From the IMG/VR virus record IMGVR_UViG_3300023210_000135, positions 1 to 31,398 of that record: a stretch of 31,398 nt of DNA; one strand, written 5' to 3'. This document shows, in pieces, positions 2,627 through 14,095 of the stretch. Source of the stretch: a virus. Numbering within the stretch: position 1 is the first letter of the stretch; the number at the start of each line of letters is the position of its first letter. The notes beneath the pieces are model-generated. The model did not search any database and had not been told where the DNA came from. It saw nothing but the letters and a program-made list of their open reading frames with translations. Made by a program: the position numbers and the translations under genes.

Positions 2627-3181
2627 CTAGTTTTTGTAAAAAGAATCTTCTAATTTTTTTGCTGGAATCTTCTTCCAGACAACAGCGATTATATTATTTG
2701 TTCCCGAATGCTTATATAAGAATCCGATATACCCTCTCGCTTCTGCTAAGACGGCAGCGCGTTCATAGGGATTTAAAAATCTTGGGTGATATCTATCAAG
2801 ACCGGTCAGTTCTTGGAATTCCTCGTATTTTTCTTCTTTTGAGAGTTTTAAAGGATCCTCATGTATGGGATACAGTTTATCAAAGTCAATTTCTGATACA
2901 TAGGCGGTTTTGCCAGGAATCCTCCCGATTCCAGGGTCTTCCTGACCCATTTCTGTAAAAAAGAAAACCCTAGGTCTGTCCCATGTTCGATATTCTGTCC
3001 TAGAAAAAATATTCTTACTCTTTGCAGAGATCTCCGGATCAAGTTCAGCGATATCAGAAGCATCTGACACATGGTATAGTTTGATCTTACCCTTGTCGTC
3101 TACTTTTAGACTATTTCGATAGGTATCGAACGTGTCCGAAGTTTCATTGAGGAAGTTTCTCCAAATTTTATTAACATTCAC
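2627..3181 (-). CDS. ADP-ribosyltransferase-like protein with putative capsid-targeting N-terminus
   Basis: Residues 33-100 resemble small ADP-ribosyltransferase folds: KLYHVS (His37), a DPE segment, WDRPRVFFFT (68-76), then KTAYVSEID (Tyr94) and a C-terminal GYIGFLY strand region. This matches the H-Y order of RNA/protein 2'-type transferases such as Arr, but a catalytic glutamate cannot be placed with certainty. The first 13 residues include IWRNFLNE, ending in L-N-E before Thr14. That form matches T4 prohead protease sites (L/I-x-E) and T4 Alt, an ADP-ribosyltransferase packed in the head and clipped at its N-terminus. The start is GTG at 3179-3181; no in-frame ATG is near. Fold assignment is moderate and packaging is inference. 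Confidence 0.5.
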   Translation of the reverse strand: MNVNKIWRNFLNETSDTFDTYRNSLKVDDKGKIKLYHVSDASDIAELDPEISAKSKNIFSRTEYRTWDRPRVFFFTEMGQEDPGIGRIPGKTAYVSEIDFDKLYPIHEDPLKLSKEEKYEEFQELTGLDRYHPRFLNPYERAAVLAEARGYIGFLYKHSGTNNIIAVVWKKIPAKKLEDSFYKN

Positions 3182-8243: not shown

Positions 8244-8843
8244 TCACGACTCGCACGCATGAGCTTCCACTATGAAGTCAACGTAAGTAGCCATTATTTC
8301 ATCTCTAATATCGGGGTCAGTAGCCATGGTCCATGCGTAAGCCACTGTACCTTTTACTGCGTCTACTTCCCCCTTCTTTTCCTGGATATCTTCGGACACC
8401 GAGGCGATGTCTTCCTTGACTATAGGAGGGAGCGGGATCTCTAATTCCGAGGCAAGGTCTCTTAAAAGAGATGTCTTCCCCTCTTCAAAGGCGACGGCGG
8501 CGGCTCGGAAAAGCCTCTCCTTCCTTTTGCGGTCCTTCGGGCTTAGGGCGGCGAGTTTATCTGGGTGGGTCTCTATGGCGATCTTCTTGTAGAGCTTTTT
8601 AATCTGTTCAGACACTTTCCTTCTCTTCCTTCGCTGTTCTCGATTGAGCTTCTCTTCGGGTTCGTCGGTTGGTTCTGGAAAGATTATGTCTCTACTTGCA
8701 AGTTCATTTCGGTAATTGTTGCTGAAGCTCTCTTTCTCGGAGTCAACGAACGCTAAATAATATTCCAATTCTGACTCCAACAACTTCAATTCTGAAACTG
8801 CCTTATTGTATTCAAGAACTACTAGTTTATCTTCTGCGGACAT
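8244..8843 (-). CDS. J-domain (DnaJ-like) protein
   Basis: A central segment, about residues 83-110, has the J-domain signature: EQIKKLYKKIAIETHPDKL, with HPD between helices II and III, followed by a charged helix (KDRKRKERLFRAAAVAFEEG). HPD is what stimulates DnaK ATPase. The N-terminal 60 residues are coiled-coil-like and the C-terminus is acidic. It lacks the Gly/Phe and zinc-finger parts of DnaJ, so it is a minimal J protein that could recruit host DnaK to phage replication or assembly complexes. The ATG at 8841-8843 starts MSAEDKL; a GTG seven codons earlier is less likely. No strong ribosome site is visible, and a 19-base palindrome covers the start codon. Confidence 0.8.
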   Translation of the reverse strand: MSAEDKLVVLEYNKAVSELKLLESELEYYLAFVDSEKESFSNNYRNELASRDIIFPEPTDEPEEKLNREQRRKRRKVSEQIKKLYKKIAIETHPDKLAALSPKDRKRKERLFRAAAVAFEEGKTSLLRDLASELEIPLPPIVKEDIASVSEDIQEKKGEVDAVKGTVAYAWTMATDPDIRDEIMATYVDFIVEAHACES

Positions 8844-8859
8844 ACTATAATATAGTATG
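8841..8859. promoter_or_regulatory. Perfect 19-base palindrome over the J-domain start codon
   Basis: CATACTATA-A-TATAGTATG has two perfect 9-base arms around one central base. On the minus strand its last three bases are the J-domain ATG. It could be an operator or an RNA hairpin hiding the start codon. The arms ATACTAT/ATAGTAT recur at 30549-30564. Confidence 0.45.
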
Positions 8860-8890
8860 CCCACAGATTTAAATACCAGTACAAATCAAC

Positions 8891-9226: not shown

Positions 9227-10339
9227 CTATTTTTTGGTGTCTTCTATCTCATAAAAATCCTCAGCCTTTCCTTGCCGAGTATCAAATTTATAAATTATTT
9301 CTTCATCGATGATTTGATAGACCCTTTGTCTGAATTTATCATCTTGCATCTTCTCTATCCATTTCGAAGCCTGAAATTTCTCTGTGGCACCGTCTTCAAA
9401 GACCATCGTAAACCAGGCGCCTGCCTGGAGAATCTTATCGGATCCCTTGACCGCCTCAAACAAAGACTCATCATCTTGGATGCTGACTCGATCACCTCCC
9501 CACAATATACTGAAGTTACATCGACGACCCTGCGTACCGAATCGAGACTTCTCAAGCTTTACTTTAACTTCGGAGCCAATACGGAAGCCATTTTCATCTA
9601 GAACAAAACTTGCCTTTGCCTTGCGTCCAGTGAGCCAGATACGCAATGAATATGCGTAAGTCATGGCTTTCCCGCCTGGTGTGACATACGGAGTTGTCAT
9701 GGCTTCGCTTGGAGAGCGCGTGATATTTGTTTTTAGCTGGTTTAGAACCAAGAAGGTGCATTTGTTATTAGCTATAGCCAGTGTCAGCTTGGACATTCCC
9801 TTTGAAAGAATGCGAGCCTTGACAGCCATGGATGACTGTGGATTAAAATCTCCCTCAATATCTGAGATGGCGGGTGTTAAAGCCAGAGAATCCCAGATAA
9901 AGAGAACCTGACTGCCATTGCCCAGGAGGTCTTCAATCGTTTCCAGAACGAATTCGACAGACTGTGCCTGGACATAGAGAAGCCTGTCAAGATCACACCC
10001 CGAGTTTTTCAGGAAGGATGGATCAATTGCCGACTCTGAATCAAAGTAGACTACATCCATGTCCATTTTCTGGGCATTTGCTGCAATTTGTGCAGCCATA
10101 TATGATTTACCCGTCGCTTCAAGCCCAGCGATTTCGACAACCTTGCCAACGGGAATTCCAGACAGTTTACCTCGACAGATAATTGAATCAAGCCAGCGCG
10201 AGCCGGTAGGAATCCATTGAGTGACCTCTGTTGGGTTTGCTTCCTTGAGATTGTGGGCAAGATTCATGCCCGCTTTCTTGTTGATGAGTTTTCGCATGTC
10301 GCCCATTGAGAGCTTGCCTGGTGATGCCTTTTTGGCCAT
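9227..10339 (-). CDS. RecA/UvsX-type recombinase
   Basis: This is a strand-exchange recombinase. The sequence shows GLEATGKS (Walker A, 72-79), VVYFDSESA with the catalytic Glu near 102, VLFIWDSLAL (Walker B, about 145-154), a loop NQLKTNI (200-206, the allosteric Gln) and TPGGKAM (220-226, second DNA-binding loop region). Its 370 residues are near E. coli RecA (353) and T4 UvsX (391). It would drive recombination-dependent replication and repair together with the gp32-like protein. The ATG has AGGA upstream, and a near-perfect sigma70 promoter lies about 25 bases upstream, so it can be expressed alone. Confidence 0.95.
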   Translation of the reverse strand: MAKKASPGKLSMGDMRKLINKKAGMNLAHNLKEANPTEVTQWIPTGSRWLDSIICRGKLSGIPVGKVVEIAGLEATGKSYMAAQIAANAQKMDMDVVYFDSESAIDPSFLKNSGCDLDRLLYVQAQSVEFVLETIEDLLGNGSQVLFIWDSLALTPAISDIEGDFNPQSSMAVKARILSKGMSKLTLAIANNKCTFLVLNQLKTNITRSPSEAMTTPYVTPGGKAMTYAYSLRIWLTGRKAKASFVLDENGFRIGSEVKVKLEKSRFGTQGRRCNFSILWGGDRVSIQDDESLFEAVKGSDKILQAGAWFTMVFEDGATEKFQASKWIEKMQDDKFRQRVYQIIDEEIIYKFDTRQGKAEDFYEIEDTKK

Positions 10340-10363: not shown

Positions 10364-10392
10364 ATTATACCATCAAATTTATGTTGTGTCAA
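10364..10392 (-). promoter_or_regulatory. Consensus sigma70 promoter for the recombinase gene
   Basis: The minus strand has TTGACA (10387-10392), a 17-base spacer and TATAAT (10364-10369), both perfect, with TGG before the -10 (extended -10). It overlaps the 3' end of the upstream nuclease gene. Confidence 0.85.
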
Positions 10393-11155
10393 GTGTTTTT
10401 TCGGGAGCAGGATATATTTTTTTAATAGCAGTTGCAAAGTCAGTTACTTTTGTGTCTACAAATTTTCCTCGCAAAGCCATCGTGTATGAATATCTGTTTT
10501 TAGAATGATATTTAATTCGAAATACCACATAACAATTTTGCAAGGCGCCTTCCAGAGTGGGCAGGTCACCCCCTCCCAGCGAATAAATATCGTCTCCCAA
10601 AATAATAAAATCATCCCCCTTGGATCGATAATATTGCTGAATAAAAGAAGGTGAGATATTTACTCTTACAATATCTCCACTCAAGCTTTTTATCCTTGGT
10701 CGACTAAGGTAAGATTCCCAAAATTCTGCTGCATTTTCGGTTGTTAGGCTAGGTCCGGACGGGAAGTCTCCCTGGATTTTACTATCTAATATACTTTTTA
10801 TTTCTGAAAATACAGTTACTAAGATATCATTTTTTAAACCAGTTGCTTGAGCCCACCCGGACGACTCACTGTATGTGGCTCTAAATTGACCAAAATCTAT
10901 TCTTGACCCTTTGCTCGTCTTTATCTCGTAAGAGTGGATTTTATCTCCAGTAGTCTTATCCTTCACCACAACGTCGCTAGCAGCGCCGGCGCCTCCTTCG
11001 GCGGTCGCAGTATACTCAATCGAGCTAGCTTCAAAAAACGAGTTCATAACCTGAGCAATGTGTTCCTCGTGGGCTGAGCCGCGACTAACCATGCTAATGT
11101 TACCCGCTTCGTCCAGATATCTTCGCCAACCTTCCATTAATGGTTTCATATTCAT
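10379..11155 (-). CDS. PD-(D/E)XK-type endonuclease-like protein with putative capsid-targeting N-terminus
   Basis: Residues about 60-92 have the restriction-endonuclease core: ASDVVV (Asp61), a turn, then YEIKTSKG (Glu77, Lys79), followed by DFGQFRATY (Gln90). This matches the D...ExK plan with a downstream Gln. The rest is unrecognised. The first 18 residues (MKPLMEGWRRYLDEAG within them) share WR-x-(Y/F)-L-x-E with the protein at 2627-3181; LDE before Ala17 fits a prohead-protease site. The start ATG shares its A with the methyltransferase stop (TGATG), so the two are translated together. Likely a nuclease that acts on DNA lacking the partner's methylation; head packaging is inferred. A structural role is the alternative. 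Confidence 0.6.
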   Translation of the reverse strand: MNMKPLMEGWRRYLDEAGNISMVSRGSAHEEHIAQVMNSFFEASSIEYTATAEGGAGAASDVVVKDKTTGDKIHSYEIKTSKGSRIDFGQFRATYSESSGWAQATGLKNDILVTVFSEIKSILDSKIQGDFPSGPSLTTENAAEFWESYLSRPRIKSLSGDIVRVNISPSFIQQYYRSKGDDFIILGDDIYSLGGGDLPTLEGALQNCYVVFRIKYHSKNRYSYTMALRGKFVDTKVTDFATAIKKIYPAPEKTLDTT

Positions 11156-12099
11156 CACCCTATAATTAGTAGTTCAGATGAGGAACCCATCTTTTTTGTG
11201 CTAACATTTTTCATTCCGTATGACCACGCGGCTTCTCTTATCTCGTAACCCTTGTACAAATCCCTGATTGCTGGGCAATTATTGTAAGACAAGACCCAAT
11301 TTGAACGCTGCGATAAAACCTTGTGAAGAGCCTGATGGTTGAAGGGACCGTGAAGGTCGCCGTCGCTTCCATATAGAACTTCGCGGTTTGTCCAATATCC
11401 TGGGATGACCTTCCCGGTTCTCTCATCTACATGCTCTTCAATCCAAGCTTTTGAGCCAAGCATATATGGTGGATCGCAGTATAGAAATGCATCAGGGTGC
11501 TTTTCGATGGCCTCTTTAAAATCTAGACACTCAACTTCGAAGTTTTTAACTTTGAATTTCCTTAATCTATCCAGGGTCGTGGGTGTCATCCTTGCCCAGC
11601 TTGCTTTCCATGACCACCCTCCAGAAGTTGTCGCACCAGAGAAGCTTGAACGATTCACAATATAGTACTGAGCGGCGCGCTTAAATAAATTTTTCCCTGT
11701 GGGTTTGTTTTTCGTTTGCAATAAATTTACAATTTCTCGGGCATCTTCGAATTCTTCTCTGGAAATTCCTTTTATCTCCCCTCGTCGTATCTTGTTATAT
11801 AGATCACCAGCCTCGAATTTTGCAGGATCATCTGTATACTCGATCAGCTTTTGTCGGCGCTTTTCGATTTCTTCGAGTAGCTGCTCTGGATCTTCCAAGA
11901 GGGCTTGCCAAAACCAAACCAACGGCTTGAACAAATCATAACCATAGACTTTGGCTCCATATTCTTCAGCGACAGCAAGCTCCAGCGACCCACCCCCGAG
12001 GAAAGGGGAACAGAATTCCTTACAATCCTTGGGGATGAGTGGCAGAATGTGCTTAACAGCACGCGACTTGCCGCCCGGATATCGTAGTGGCGTTTTCAT
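11155..12099 (-). CDS. Dam-family (D12 class) adenine-N6 DNA methyltransferase
   Basis: The protein starts with LRYPGGKSR, the usual D12 N-terminus, then CSPFLGGGSLE (SAM-binding motif I, 30-40), YGYDLFKP, VNRSSFSG (149-155), and LYCDPPYM (catalytic motif IV DPPY, 209-212). The 314 residues fit the family (Dam 278). It transfers methyl groups from SAM to adenine in DNA; the recognition site is not readable. It is coupled at both ends: its ATG overlaps the ParB-like stop (TAATG) and its TGA overlaps the nuclease start. This suggests a modification function paired with that nuclease. Confidence 0.93.
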   Translation of the reverse strand: MKTPLRYPGGKSRAVKHILPLIPKDCKEFCSPFLGGGSLELAVAEEYGAKVYGYDLFKPLVWFWQALLEDPEQLLEEIEKRRQKLIEYTDDPAKFEAGDLYNKIRRGEIKGISREEFEDAREIVNLLQTKNKPTGKNLFKRAAQYYIVNRSSFSGATTSGGWSWKASWARMTPTTLDRLRKFKVKNFEVECLDFKEAIEKHPDAFLYCDPPYMLGSKAWIEEHVDERTGKVIPGYWTNREVLYGSDGDLHGPFNHQALHKVLSQRSNWVLSYNNCPAIRDLYKGYEIREAAWSYGMKNVSTKKMGSSSELLIIG

Positions 12100-13259
12100 T
12101 ATTTTGAATTTATGATTTTAAGGTTATTTTCACTAGCTCTAATATCGATTTCAGACAGCAATTCCCCTTCATCAACCCCGTTTATTTGACCAAGGGCAAA
12201 TTCTTCATCAAAAACTCTCTTACCAACATATTTATTCATTTTACTAAGTTTGTCAAAAGTTTTCAGTTGAGATTTCCTTACTGCTTCGGGTGTATTGGCG
12301 TCTGTTCTAAAAATAAGTGCGGATCTCCTTTTATCATTACCATCTGCTTTTCTAAAAATTTCTGTGGCGAATTCTTTGTATAAATGTCCGTATTGCGGCG
12401 AAACTTGATAAATTTTCCAATCTTTATGTGTGTATTCGTTCTTATCTTCCACCCACTTGTCTGGATTTACCGCAACACTTCCCTTACCAGCTTCCAGAGC
12501 TTTGCGAATAGTGACGGCGCGGGATCTGGGTTCAGTAAAGGTTTTAACTCCGTTACCGACAGCCTTAATTGAATTATAAACCTCTGTTACATAAGACCTG
12601 ATGGTCCTGTGGGTTTTATTTCCGCCAGACAGTGTATGTACATGTTTAGCCAGAAGATTCTTAAAGTTGTCAGAATGATCTTCTGGGCGCCGAGCCTCTT
12701 GTTTAACAAAATTTCTAATTAACTTTTTTAAGTCAGTAGCAGATGATGCGTCTGCAGGAAGATGATCGTTTAAGAGTGTCTGAAAGCTCATCTTATGTCG
12801 CATGATGAACATAATGAGTTCGGAGTCTTCAACCACAAACATGGGTACTGTGATGGTCGCGTTATTGGCAGTGTGCCCTTGCTCTTCACAATTGCGAGCC
12901 AGAACGATGCGAGTATTGCCGTCTAACACAATTCCTGACCACTTAGAATTGGGATCTTGGTCGAGGACTGCAAATCCTGGATGTATAATCCCTTTCGATC
13001 GAATTGACTCATATTTCGTCTTATATTTATTTGGCGAGATAACGTCGTCTCGCACCTGATCGCATTTAAATTTAGCGTTTTTCTCGACTTCAGGTTTGGC
13101 TTTATCAAGCCCAGGGTGGTAAAAATCAGAAGTAGCCATAAATTTTTCAGATATTTTTCCATAAAAAGGGCTGGTCTTATCATTGAACGCTTTTCCAGTA
13201 CGACAAGACTCAATTAGTTTAAATAATTCACGTTCGGCGGCAGTAGATGGAATTGGCAT
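12099..13259 (-). CDS. ParB/sulfiredoxin-like domain protein
   Basis: Residues about 85-140 resemble the ParB N-terminal fold: SIRSKGIIHPGFAVLD, then GIVLDGNTRIVLARN with the DGNTR box at 113-117, then ITVPMFVVED. That is the motif in which ParB proteins bind CTP and sulfiredoxin binds ATP; phage copies are often annotated as ParB-like nucleases. The remaining 240 residues hold a basic helical stretch and no second enzyme motif. It is first in a three-gene coupled unit with the methyltransferase and nuclease. AGGAG lies six bases before the ATG. A terminator lies just upstream, so expression may depend on read-through. DNA specificity subunit or regulator for the unit are possible roles. Confidence 0.7.
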   Translation of the reverse strand: MPIPSTAAERELFKLIESCRTGKAFNDKTSPFYGKISEKFMATSDFYHPGLDKAKPEVEKNAKFKCDQVRDDVISPNKYKTKYESIRSKGIIHPGFAVLDQDPNSKWSGIVLDGNTRIVLARNCEEQGHTANNATITVPMFVVEDSELIMFIMRHKMSFQTLLNDHLPADASSATDLKKLIRNFVKQEARRPEDHSDNFKNLLAKHVHTLSGGNKTHRTIRSYVTEVYNSIKAVGNGVKTFTEPRSRAVTIRKALEAGKGSVAVNPDKWVEDKNEYTHKDWKIYQVSPQYGHLYKEFATEIFRKADGNDKRRSALIFRTDANTPEAVRKSQLKTFDKLSKMNKYVGKRVFDEEFALGQINGVDEGELLSEIDIRASENNLKIINSK

Positions 13260-13315: not shown

Positions 13316-14095
13316 TTAGCTGTTAGAAAGCTCGTTAAAAGCACTCAGAACATCTGATACCGGGGCAGCAGGGCGGGATTGGTAGGGCACCGCCTCTGTC
13401 TCTGTTTCTTCCGAACCCGAGATGGATTCCATAACATTGTCCAGGATTTCCTGGAGTTCGTCATGAGACTTCATATCAAAAAGATTATCGAAGCCTGGAA
13501 TATTTTCCATAAGACGGTTGCACTCGTCGTCACCTCCCAACGCATCGTCACATAGCGGCGAAGATCGTCGACGGGGAGTAAGCACAGTCTTTGGAAAGTT
13601 TGCGCCTGGGGGTTTTCCGTAGGAAAGAGTCAAGTCCGTACCTTCGTCGGTGTCAGTAATGTCACCGTATTCAGGATTAAGAACGAGATTCAAAAGCGAA
13701 GTGTACGCTTCCTTACCAAAACCCCAGATTCGGATACCATCAGACTCCTCGCCGCGTACAAGTACGGGTGAAAAGAAACGCTGGCGAGGAGACATATCCT
13801 TCGCTAGCTTCATAGTATCGCCATCTTGGGAATTATTATACTCCTTCCAAAGAGTATCTTTAAAATCACAGATGGGACAAGGCTCATCATGATTGCGCTT
13901 TGGACATAGAACGCCACCTTTTTGGGCGCCCAGATTATAATGGAACCAATAATCTTTAAAAGGATCTCCATCTTTTGTGGGTACGATACGGATGACCTGT
14001 GTACCGTCTTTTGGGCGCCAGAACTGACCACCGCCCTTTCCATTACTGTTAACGCTGTCTAAGCGCGCTCGGATTTTATCTAGATTAATTGCCAT
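13316..14095 (-). CDS. Single-stranded DNA binding protein, gp32-like
   Basis: Residues 1-30 are a basic N-terminus. A gp32-type zinc site follows: His52, Cys64, Cys73 and Cys76, with spacings 12-9-3 against T4 gp32 His64-Cys77-Cys87-Cys90 (13-10-3). The LCPKRNHDEPCPICDF segment is diagnostic. Aromatic residues across 85-170 would stack on bases. The C-terminal 60 residues are acidic (EETETEAVP) as in gp32, where the tail binds partner proteins. Length is 259 (T4 301). It coats single-stranded DNA for helicase, RecA and polymerase. It has its own promoter upstream and a terminator downstream, so it is likely a separate, strongly expressed unit. Confidence 0.9.
   Translation of the reverse strand: MAINLDKIRARLDSVNSNGKGGGQFWRPKDGTQVIRIVPTKDGDPFKDYWFHYNLGAQKGGVLCPKRNHDEPCPICDFKDTLWKEYNNSQDGDTMKLAKDMSPRQRFFSPVLVRGEESDGIRIWGFGKEAYTSLLNLVLNPEYGDITDTDEGTDLTLSYGKPPGANFPKTVLTPRRRSSPLCDDALGGDDECNRLMENIPGFDNLFDMKSHDELQEILDNVMESISGSEETETEAVPYQSRPAAPVSDVLSAFNELSNS

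Follow-up and report, generated by a model that had tools for sequence, protein, structure and literature searches.

A candidate virion-delivered restriction-modification pair in an uncultured marine T4-like phage

Why should the gene of a putative phage nuclease begin with a peptide of the capsid-targeting type and overlap the gene of a DNA methyltransferase? The question is raised by the window, the whole stretch of 31,398 bases analysed here, which is a record holding a fragment of a T4-like myovirus genome (with gp32, a DnaB-type helicase, ribonucleotide reductase, a RecA/UvsX-like protein and sheath-type proteins). Its source is an uncultured marine T4-like phage, which has only distant relatives in culture, with Microcystis phage Mel-JY01 matching best by capsid protein (37%); a near-identical copy of the gene pair lies on IMGVR_UViG_3300040985_002763 (L002). 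An initial annotation had proposed an injected restriction-modification pair at this locus; its observation is confirmed by the present analysis, and its interpretation is partly supported.

The pair belongs to a minus-strand gene string that reads, 5' to 3', gp32, ParB-like protein, D12 methylase, nuclease and RecA. The fixed borders of this slot are the gp32-like ssDNA-binding protein (13316–14095; PF08804, E 4.2e-15) and the RecA/UvsX-like recombinase (9227–10339), as seen from the slot contents of 80 relatives, kept from the 508 IMG/VR stretches in which the window RecA has relatives. What lies between the borders varies: the slot measures 60–70 bases in many relatives, holds the methylase alone or the methylase plus a nuclease elsewhere, and is empty or variable in most. 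The ParB-like protein (12099–13259, minus strand), upstream in the same string, was recognized by eye from LDGNTRIVLA...VPMFVV, a Pfam search giving no match; its homologues (25–34%) adjoin the methylase, directly upstream, in L180, L185, L194, L196 and L215. The downstream RecA gene is served by a sigma70-type promoter read from the sequence (TTGACA-17 nt-TATAAT; 10364–10392, minus strand), which is early-type, in contrast to the late-type promoter of the nuclease described below. Near RecA, a DnaJ-domain-like protein (8244–8864, minus strand; PF00226 at E 2.4e-4, below cut-off) has homologues in about 20 other loci.

The methylase (11155–12099, minus strand; 314 residues) is an untagged D12-class (Dam-like) N6-adenine DNA methyltransferase. 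It matches Pfam PF02086, MethyltransfD12 (E 6.5e-28; 98.6 bits against a cut-off of 22), and phrog_56 (E 7.5e-52), carries FLGGGS and the catalytic DPPY, and scores 71.9 bits against TIGR00571 dam, under the cut-off of 114.85. The methylase is conserved in relatives, many of which have it without a nuclease. Its stop codon TGA (11157–11155) overlaps both the GTG at 11158 and the ATG at 11155 of the nuclease frame, a 4-nt overlap, so that, as in type II restriction-modification systems, the methylase and endonuclease genes are adjacent. The open reading frames, this overlap and the motifs are as the initial annotation had described them.

The putative nuclease (10379–11158, minus strand) has 259 residues counted from GTG 11158, the numbering used below; its start is likely the third in-frame ATG, at 11149, because this gives a protein beginning MK, as in other tagged proteins. 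In an alignment of same-slot relatives and cyanophage proteins, untagged ones included, E31 on the preceding helix (11066–11068), the predicted catalytic aspartate D62 (10973–10975), the predicted catalytic motif E78-x-K80 (10919–10927), D88 and Q91 are invariant across 18 relatives, and the core is therefore not a matter of chance. These residues, of which D62 and E78-x-K80 were noted earlier as D61 and E77-x-K79, constitute the acidic/lysine core E...D...(D/E)xK of the PD-(D/E)XK enzymes. The fold prediction that the initial annotation called for is consistent with this assignment in topology and less decisive in database matches: the AlphaFold model (pLDDT 79.9, pTM 0.78) has a helix-beta-beta-beta core that fits PD-(D/E)XK, and no PDB entry reached E ≤ 0.001 in a Foldseek search, where 3ijm, a restriction-endonuclease-like protein (probability 0.69, E 0.43), was the best restriction-like match and the one match of notable probability. 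Within BFVD the model matches a named PD(D/E)XK protein weakly (probability 0.38).

The sequence by itself finds no match in Pfam, NCBIfam, PADLOC, PHROG or PDB sequences, and no relatives in a single-sequence search of 50,697 phage records or, as a profile, in bacterial genomes. The more central members L031 and P0002, used as queries, retrieve cyanophage relatives, and 12 of the 15 members of the nuclease family match phrog_26930. In addition, the predicted structure of the hypothetical protein PSSM2_192 of Prochlorococcus phage P-SSM2, linked by shared description and family, matches the model in BFVD at E 3.3e-9; it shares family and predicted fold with the window protein and differs in being untagged and having no adjacent methylase. 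The window protein thus appears to be a PD-(D/E)XK nuclease that belongs to no named family. A cyanophage string annotated 'endonuclease - Dam - hypothetical' was also considered as a tagged-nuclease locus, and on reading it contains no tagged nuclease.

Such a nuclease might act on the phage DNA itself, in recombination, resolution, packaging or head maturation, and be no weapon. It adjoins RecA and gp32, its untagged cyanophage relatives lie in replication regions, and a weak PHROG match of RusA type (E 0.013) was obtained for one family member. Against this stand the dispensability of the function, since most relatives have an empty or variable slot, the replacement of one nuclease family by other, unrelated ones, and the association with a methylase; we consider a role of this kind very improbable.

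The N-terminal residues M4–E17, MKPLMEGWRRYLDE (11108–11149, minus strand), form a predicted capsid-targeting tag, identified by matrix score and hhalign, which ends at a predicted prohead-protease cleavage site, LDE|A, between E17 and A18 (11105–11110, minus strand). The same type of 14-residue peptide (MKLLLENWRxYLxE-like) starts dozens of unrelated proteins in relatives, among them seven consecutive genes of L130 and, in L089, the gene that immediately follows the prohead protease. A tag matrix reached 10 bits or more at 37 of 1691 N-termini and at none of 1138 interior decoys. When the matrix was rebuilt from non-nuclease tagged proteins only, because circularity was to be avoided, the window peptide scored 33.6 bits against a maximum of 10.4 among 1618 interior decoys; 17 of the 35 slot proteins listed score above that best decoy, and the untagged forms lie at background level. 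Alignment of the F0 profile, that of the family to which the window nuclease belongs, with those of families F1, F4 and F2 by hhalign recovers only 16–17 residues, which coincide with the tag; beyond it the nuclease bodies do not align from one family to another, and common ancestry is not claimed for them for that reason. In F2, the first residues of the untagged L166 (SRNT...) correspond to those that immediately follow the tag in its relatives (RE|SKNT...), and the peptide is likewise absent from the untagged cyanophage members.

The processing machinery expected of such a tag is encoded in relatives, which have a T4-type S77 prohead protease (PF03420, in 7 of 16 relative contigs) and gp23; the window, a fragment, has no protease gene. 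The LxE|A pattern at the tag end recurs at the predicted cleavage site of the relatives' major capsid protein (LLRE|AS), which we take to sit at the place of T4 cleavage. By comparison, then, the packaging/cleavage-like peptide of the initial annotation is a genuine tag, MKPLMEGWRRYLDE|A: like a T4-type CTS, it is a short N-terminal peptide on unrelated proteins, with a T4-type prohead protease and a predicted cleavage-type site at its end.

Other N-termini of this kind were seen along the way. The seven MKLLLENW-type genes of L130 (13321–18151), one of them GNAT-type by Pfam, are preceded by a ACTAATTA element ahead of the first gene and make up a predicted injected-effector cluster. In the window, a second possibly tagged protein with a GTG start (2627–3181, minus strand; MNVNKIWRNFLNE|T...) has no relatives in the loci or phage records searched, and a reading of it as an ADP-ribosyltransferase was supported by no match. 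A second recurrent N-terminal peptide, MKITKxxLRxIIKEE (L106 15849; L107 16859 and 19144; L130 5666 and 7732; L230 4792), also lies behind late promoters, and a similar peptide starts the L230 nuclease; this may be another type of capsid-targeting sequence. Marine phage proteins (L105 19515, L148 7896, L161 7199) show a third recurrent start, (L)NEgTIRRFgKLANM.

The timing of nuclease production is suggested by a predicted late promoter, TACTAATTATAG (11160–11171, minus strand), which lies within the 3' end of the methylase gene and is predicted from element statistics. The ACTANTTA element is enriched 1.7- to 2.8-fold in relatives; in three of them, 43–57% of its sites fall 12–70 bases before an ORF start, against 4–6% of random positions, and most of the genes downstream of it are either structural genes (of sheath and tube type, and the one that follows MCP) or tagged ones. 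Within the window, five of seven sites have this spacing, against 3.7% of random positions, and precede the genes for the sheath, the likely tail tube, two others and the nuclease. At the methylase end, TACTAATTA occurs in 23 of 24 tagged-nuclease loci, none of 10 untagged-nuclease loci and one of nine loci that have no nuclease (RecA next). The contrast itself is clear, and its Fisher p of 5.7e-10 overstates it because the rows are not independent and the test ignores relatedness. Three weak- or no-tag loci were left out of the test; two (L070 and L230) carry the element, and L175 has lost both tag and element. An explanation of the conserved TACTAATTATAGGG as a mere reflection of the protein end LIIG was rejected, because loci with an untagged nuclease or none use different codons for nearly the same residues. 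Since the final codons of the methylase gene, both here and in relatives, also spell out the late promoter, the downstream gene limits codon choice at this point. In L191, TACTAATTATAGGATGATG stands at the end of the methylase gene with no nuclease after it and looks like the remnant of a lost nuclease gene.

We infer that the nuclease is expressed late, as befits the T4-type CTS class. The earlier statement that the two proteins are made together calls for correction: with a separate late promoter for the nuclease lying within the methylase gene, it is likelier that the methylase is produced first and the nuclease late. This bears on the idea that the pair is an ordinary type II restriction-modification system that attacks superinfecting phages within the infected cell, in which case the N-terminal peptide would have another role. 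Versions with neither tag nor late promoter do occur behind the same methylase family (L166, L185, L197, L199, L200, L208, L209, L221 and L236). However, tag and late promoter co-occur, the tag is common to unrelated proteins and ends at a cleavage-type site, and late production would be poor timing for rival exclusion, all of which makes this explanation improbable in our judgement.

The nuclease-like genes that follow near-identical methylases in relatives fall into at least five unrelated families, which replace one another immediately after the tag. The methylases of the window and L164 are 92% identical and are followed by different families; those of L226, L233, L235 and L223 (95–99% identical) are followed by three further ones; and behind the methylases of L042 and L211 (94% and 88% identical to that of L031) the family differs from that of L031. 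Across swapped pairs (methylases 88–99% identical), DNA similarity drops in or right behind the tag. The motifs of these families were read by eye (F1, KxD...SxK; F2, NPTDIL...SAK; F4, KVDI...SLK...QF; F12, KSDF...SHK...FGQW), and F2, F4 and F12 are putative nucleases by such motifs only; the structure model of F1 is poor (pLDDT 47.5). Since methylases of 95–99% identity go with three unrelated nuclease families, either one site is shared or the match between methylase and nuclease is loose.

The second option leads to a reading in which the packaged nuclease is unmatched: the slot, with its late promoter and tag, would be a landing place for injected effectors, and the methylase would serve otherwise, for example in evading host restriction. 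It draws on the exchange of unrelated families behind 95–99% identical methylases, on the many relatives with methylase and no nuclease, on the tagged proteins, one of GNAT type, elsewhere in the genomes, and on cyanophage S-8S53, whose partial genome has an untagged relative of the nuclease and no D12 or N6_N4 methylase. The first and the last of these points, together with the PDB fold search lacking a significant match, the poor F1 model and the assignment of F2, F4 and F12 by motif only, also count against the pair reading that we prefer. On the other hand, all tagged proteins directly behind the methylase carry a nuclease-type motif, whereas those elsewhere show none, and an unprotected nuclease packed with DNA would endanger the phage genome. 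Moreover, the adjacency that the initial annotation asked to see conserved is borne out, as the D12 methylase immediately precedes 14 of the 15 F0 members from IMG/VR, the exception being L160, a 4.8-kb contig. We regard the unmatched reading as fairly unlikely.

How does the pair compare with known systems? In T4, the internal proteins IPI–III and Alt (PMC9026906, PMC5694885) likewise have a short N-terminal peptide removed by the prohead protease and are unrelated cargo injected with the DNA, packaging and injection being predicted here. They differ in that T4 cargo inhibits restriction or ADP-ribosylates and T4 naturally lacks a nuclease paired with a methylase of its own; the present peptide has 14 residues, 10 being sufficient in IPIII, and belongs to a different clade. 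EcoRI fused to T4 IPIII or its CTS is packaged and delivered (PMC9026906), and the packaging of a tagged nuclease is therefore feasible. Type II restriction-modification systems with a D12 methylase resemble the pair in that the methylase gene overlaps a PD-(D/E)XK-like gene; unlike theirs, the nuclease here is tagged, separately promoted as a late gene, and exchanged between unrelated families. Phage P1 Dar and the polyvalent proteins (PMC5512222, PMC12810830) are also injected phage proteins in restriction conflicts, but they are large and anti-restriction or multidomain, in contrast to a small separate nuclease plus methylase. As for a natural phage-packaged nuclease or restriction pair, none was found in the open-access papers searched, which is weak evidence because only such papers were covered.

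The earlier remark that no such system has been described thus stands for phages in that literature and fails for viruses generally. In the chloroviruses (PBCV-1 and its relatives), according to the available part of the source (PMC7019647), the endonuclease is packaged and the methylase is not, and host DNA is degraded from 5 min. As here, methylase and endonuclease genes are adjacent, and the endonuclease enters the virion without the methylase, the counterpart in the window being a tag on the nuclease and none on the methylase. The differences are that the chloroviruses are eukaryotic algal viruses with an unrelated particle, that the same part of the source reports no T4-type tag or prohead-protease processing, and that packaging was measured there and is predicted here. 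The role proposed for their packaged restriction enzymes is host-DNA degradation, minutes into infection, and these enzymes are reported, in that account, not to cause exclusion. On this analogy, of the two targets proposed initially, host DNA is the likelier and rival phage DNA a possible one.

In sum, the nuclease core, the tag, the adjacency, the late promoter element and the repeated nuclease exchange, all read from sequence, make a virion-delivered restriction-modification pair reasonably probable. The methylase, encoded among replication genes, would methylate phage DNA in the infected cell, and the nuclease would follow late, expressed from a separate promoter that lies in the final methylase codons. 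The 14-residue tag would carry the nuclease into the prohead core, where the T4-type prohead protease would cut after LxE and free it. At the next infection the nuclease would leave the head with DNA that is methyl-protected, presumably at matched sites, and in the new cell it would cut unmethylated DNA, most likely the host chromosome (for shut-off and nucleotide supply) and perhaps also unmethylated rivals.

A broader proposal, which we place only slightly on the probable side, is that this widespread marine T4-like clade maintains a 'warhead slot', in which a methylase bearing a late promoter, followed by a tag, receives interchangeable injected restriction nucleases that would be isoschizomers from unrelated families, the phage DNA being methyl-protected. 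If true, bacterial viruses would have in this slot their own equivalent of the chlorovirus system, and phages would use restriction-modification offensively, delivered ready-made in the particle. The tag and the ACTANTTA promoter together would provide a reading rule by which the injected arsenal of a large, uncultured clade of marine phages could be listed from sequence alone. The locus also brings to light several nuclease families that are as yet uncharacterised and may have one recognition site in common. The system would also allow one to test how a nuclease that is injected avoids cutting the DNA of its own phage.
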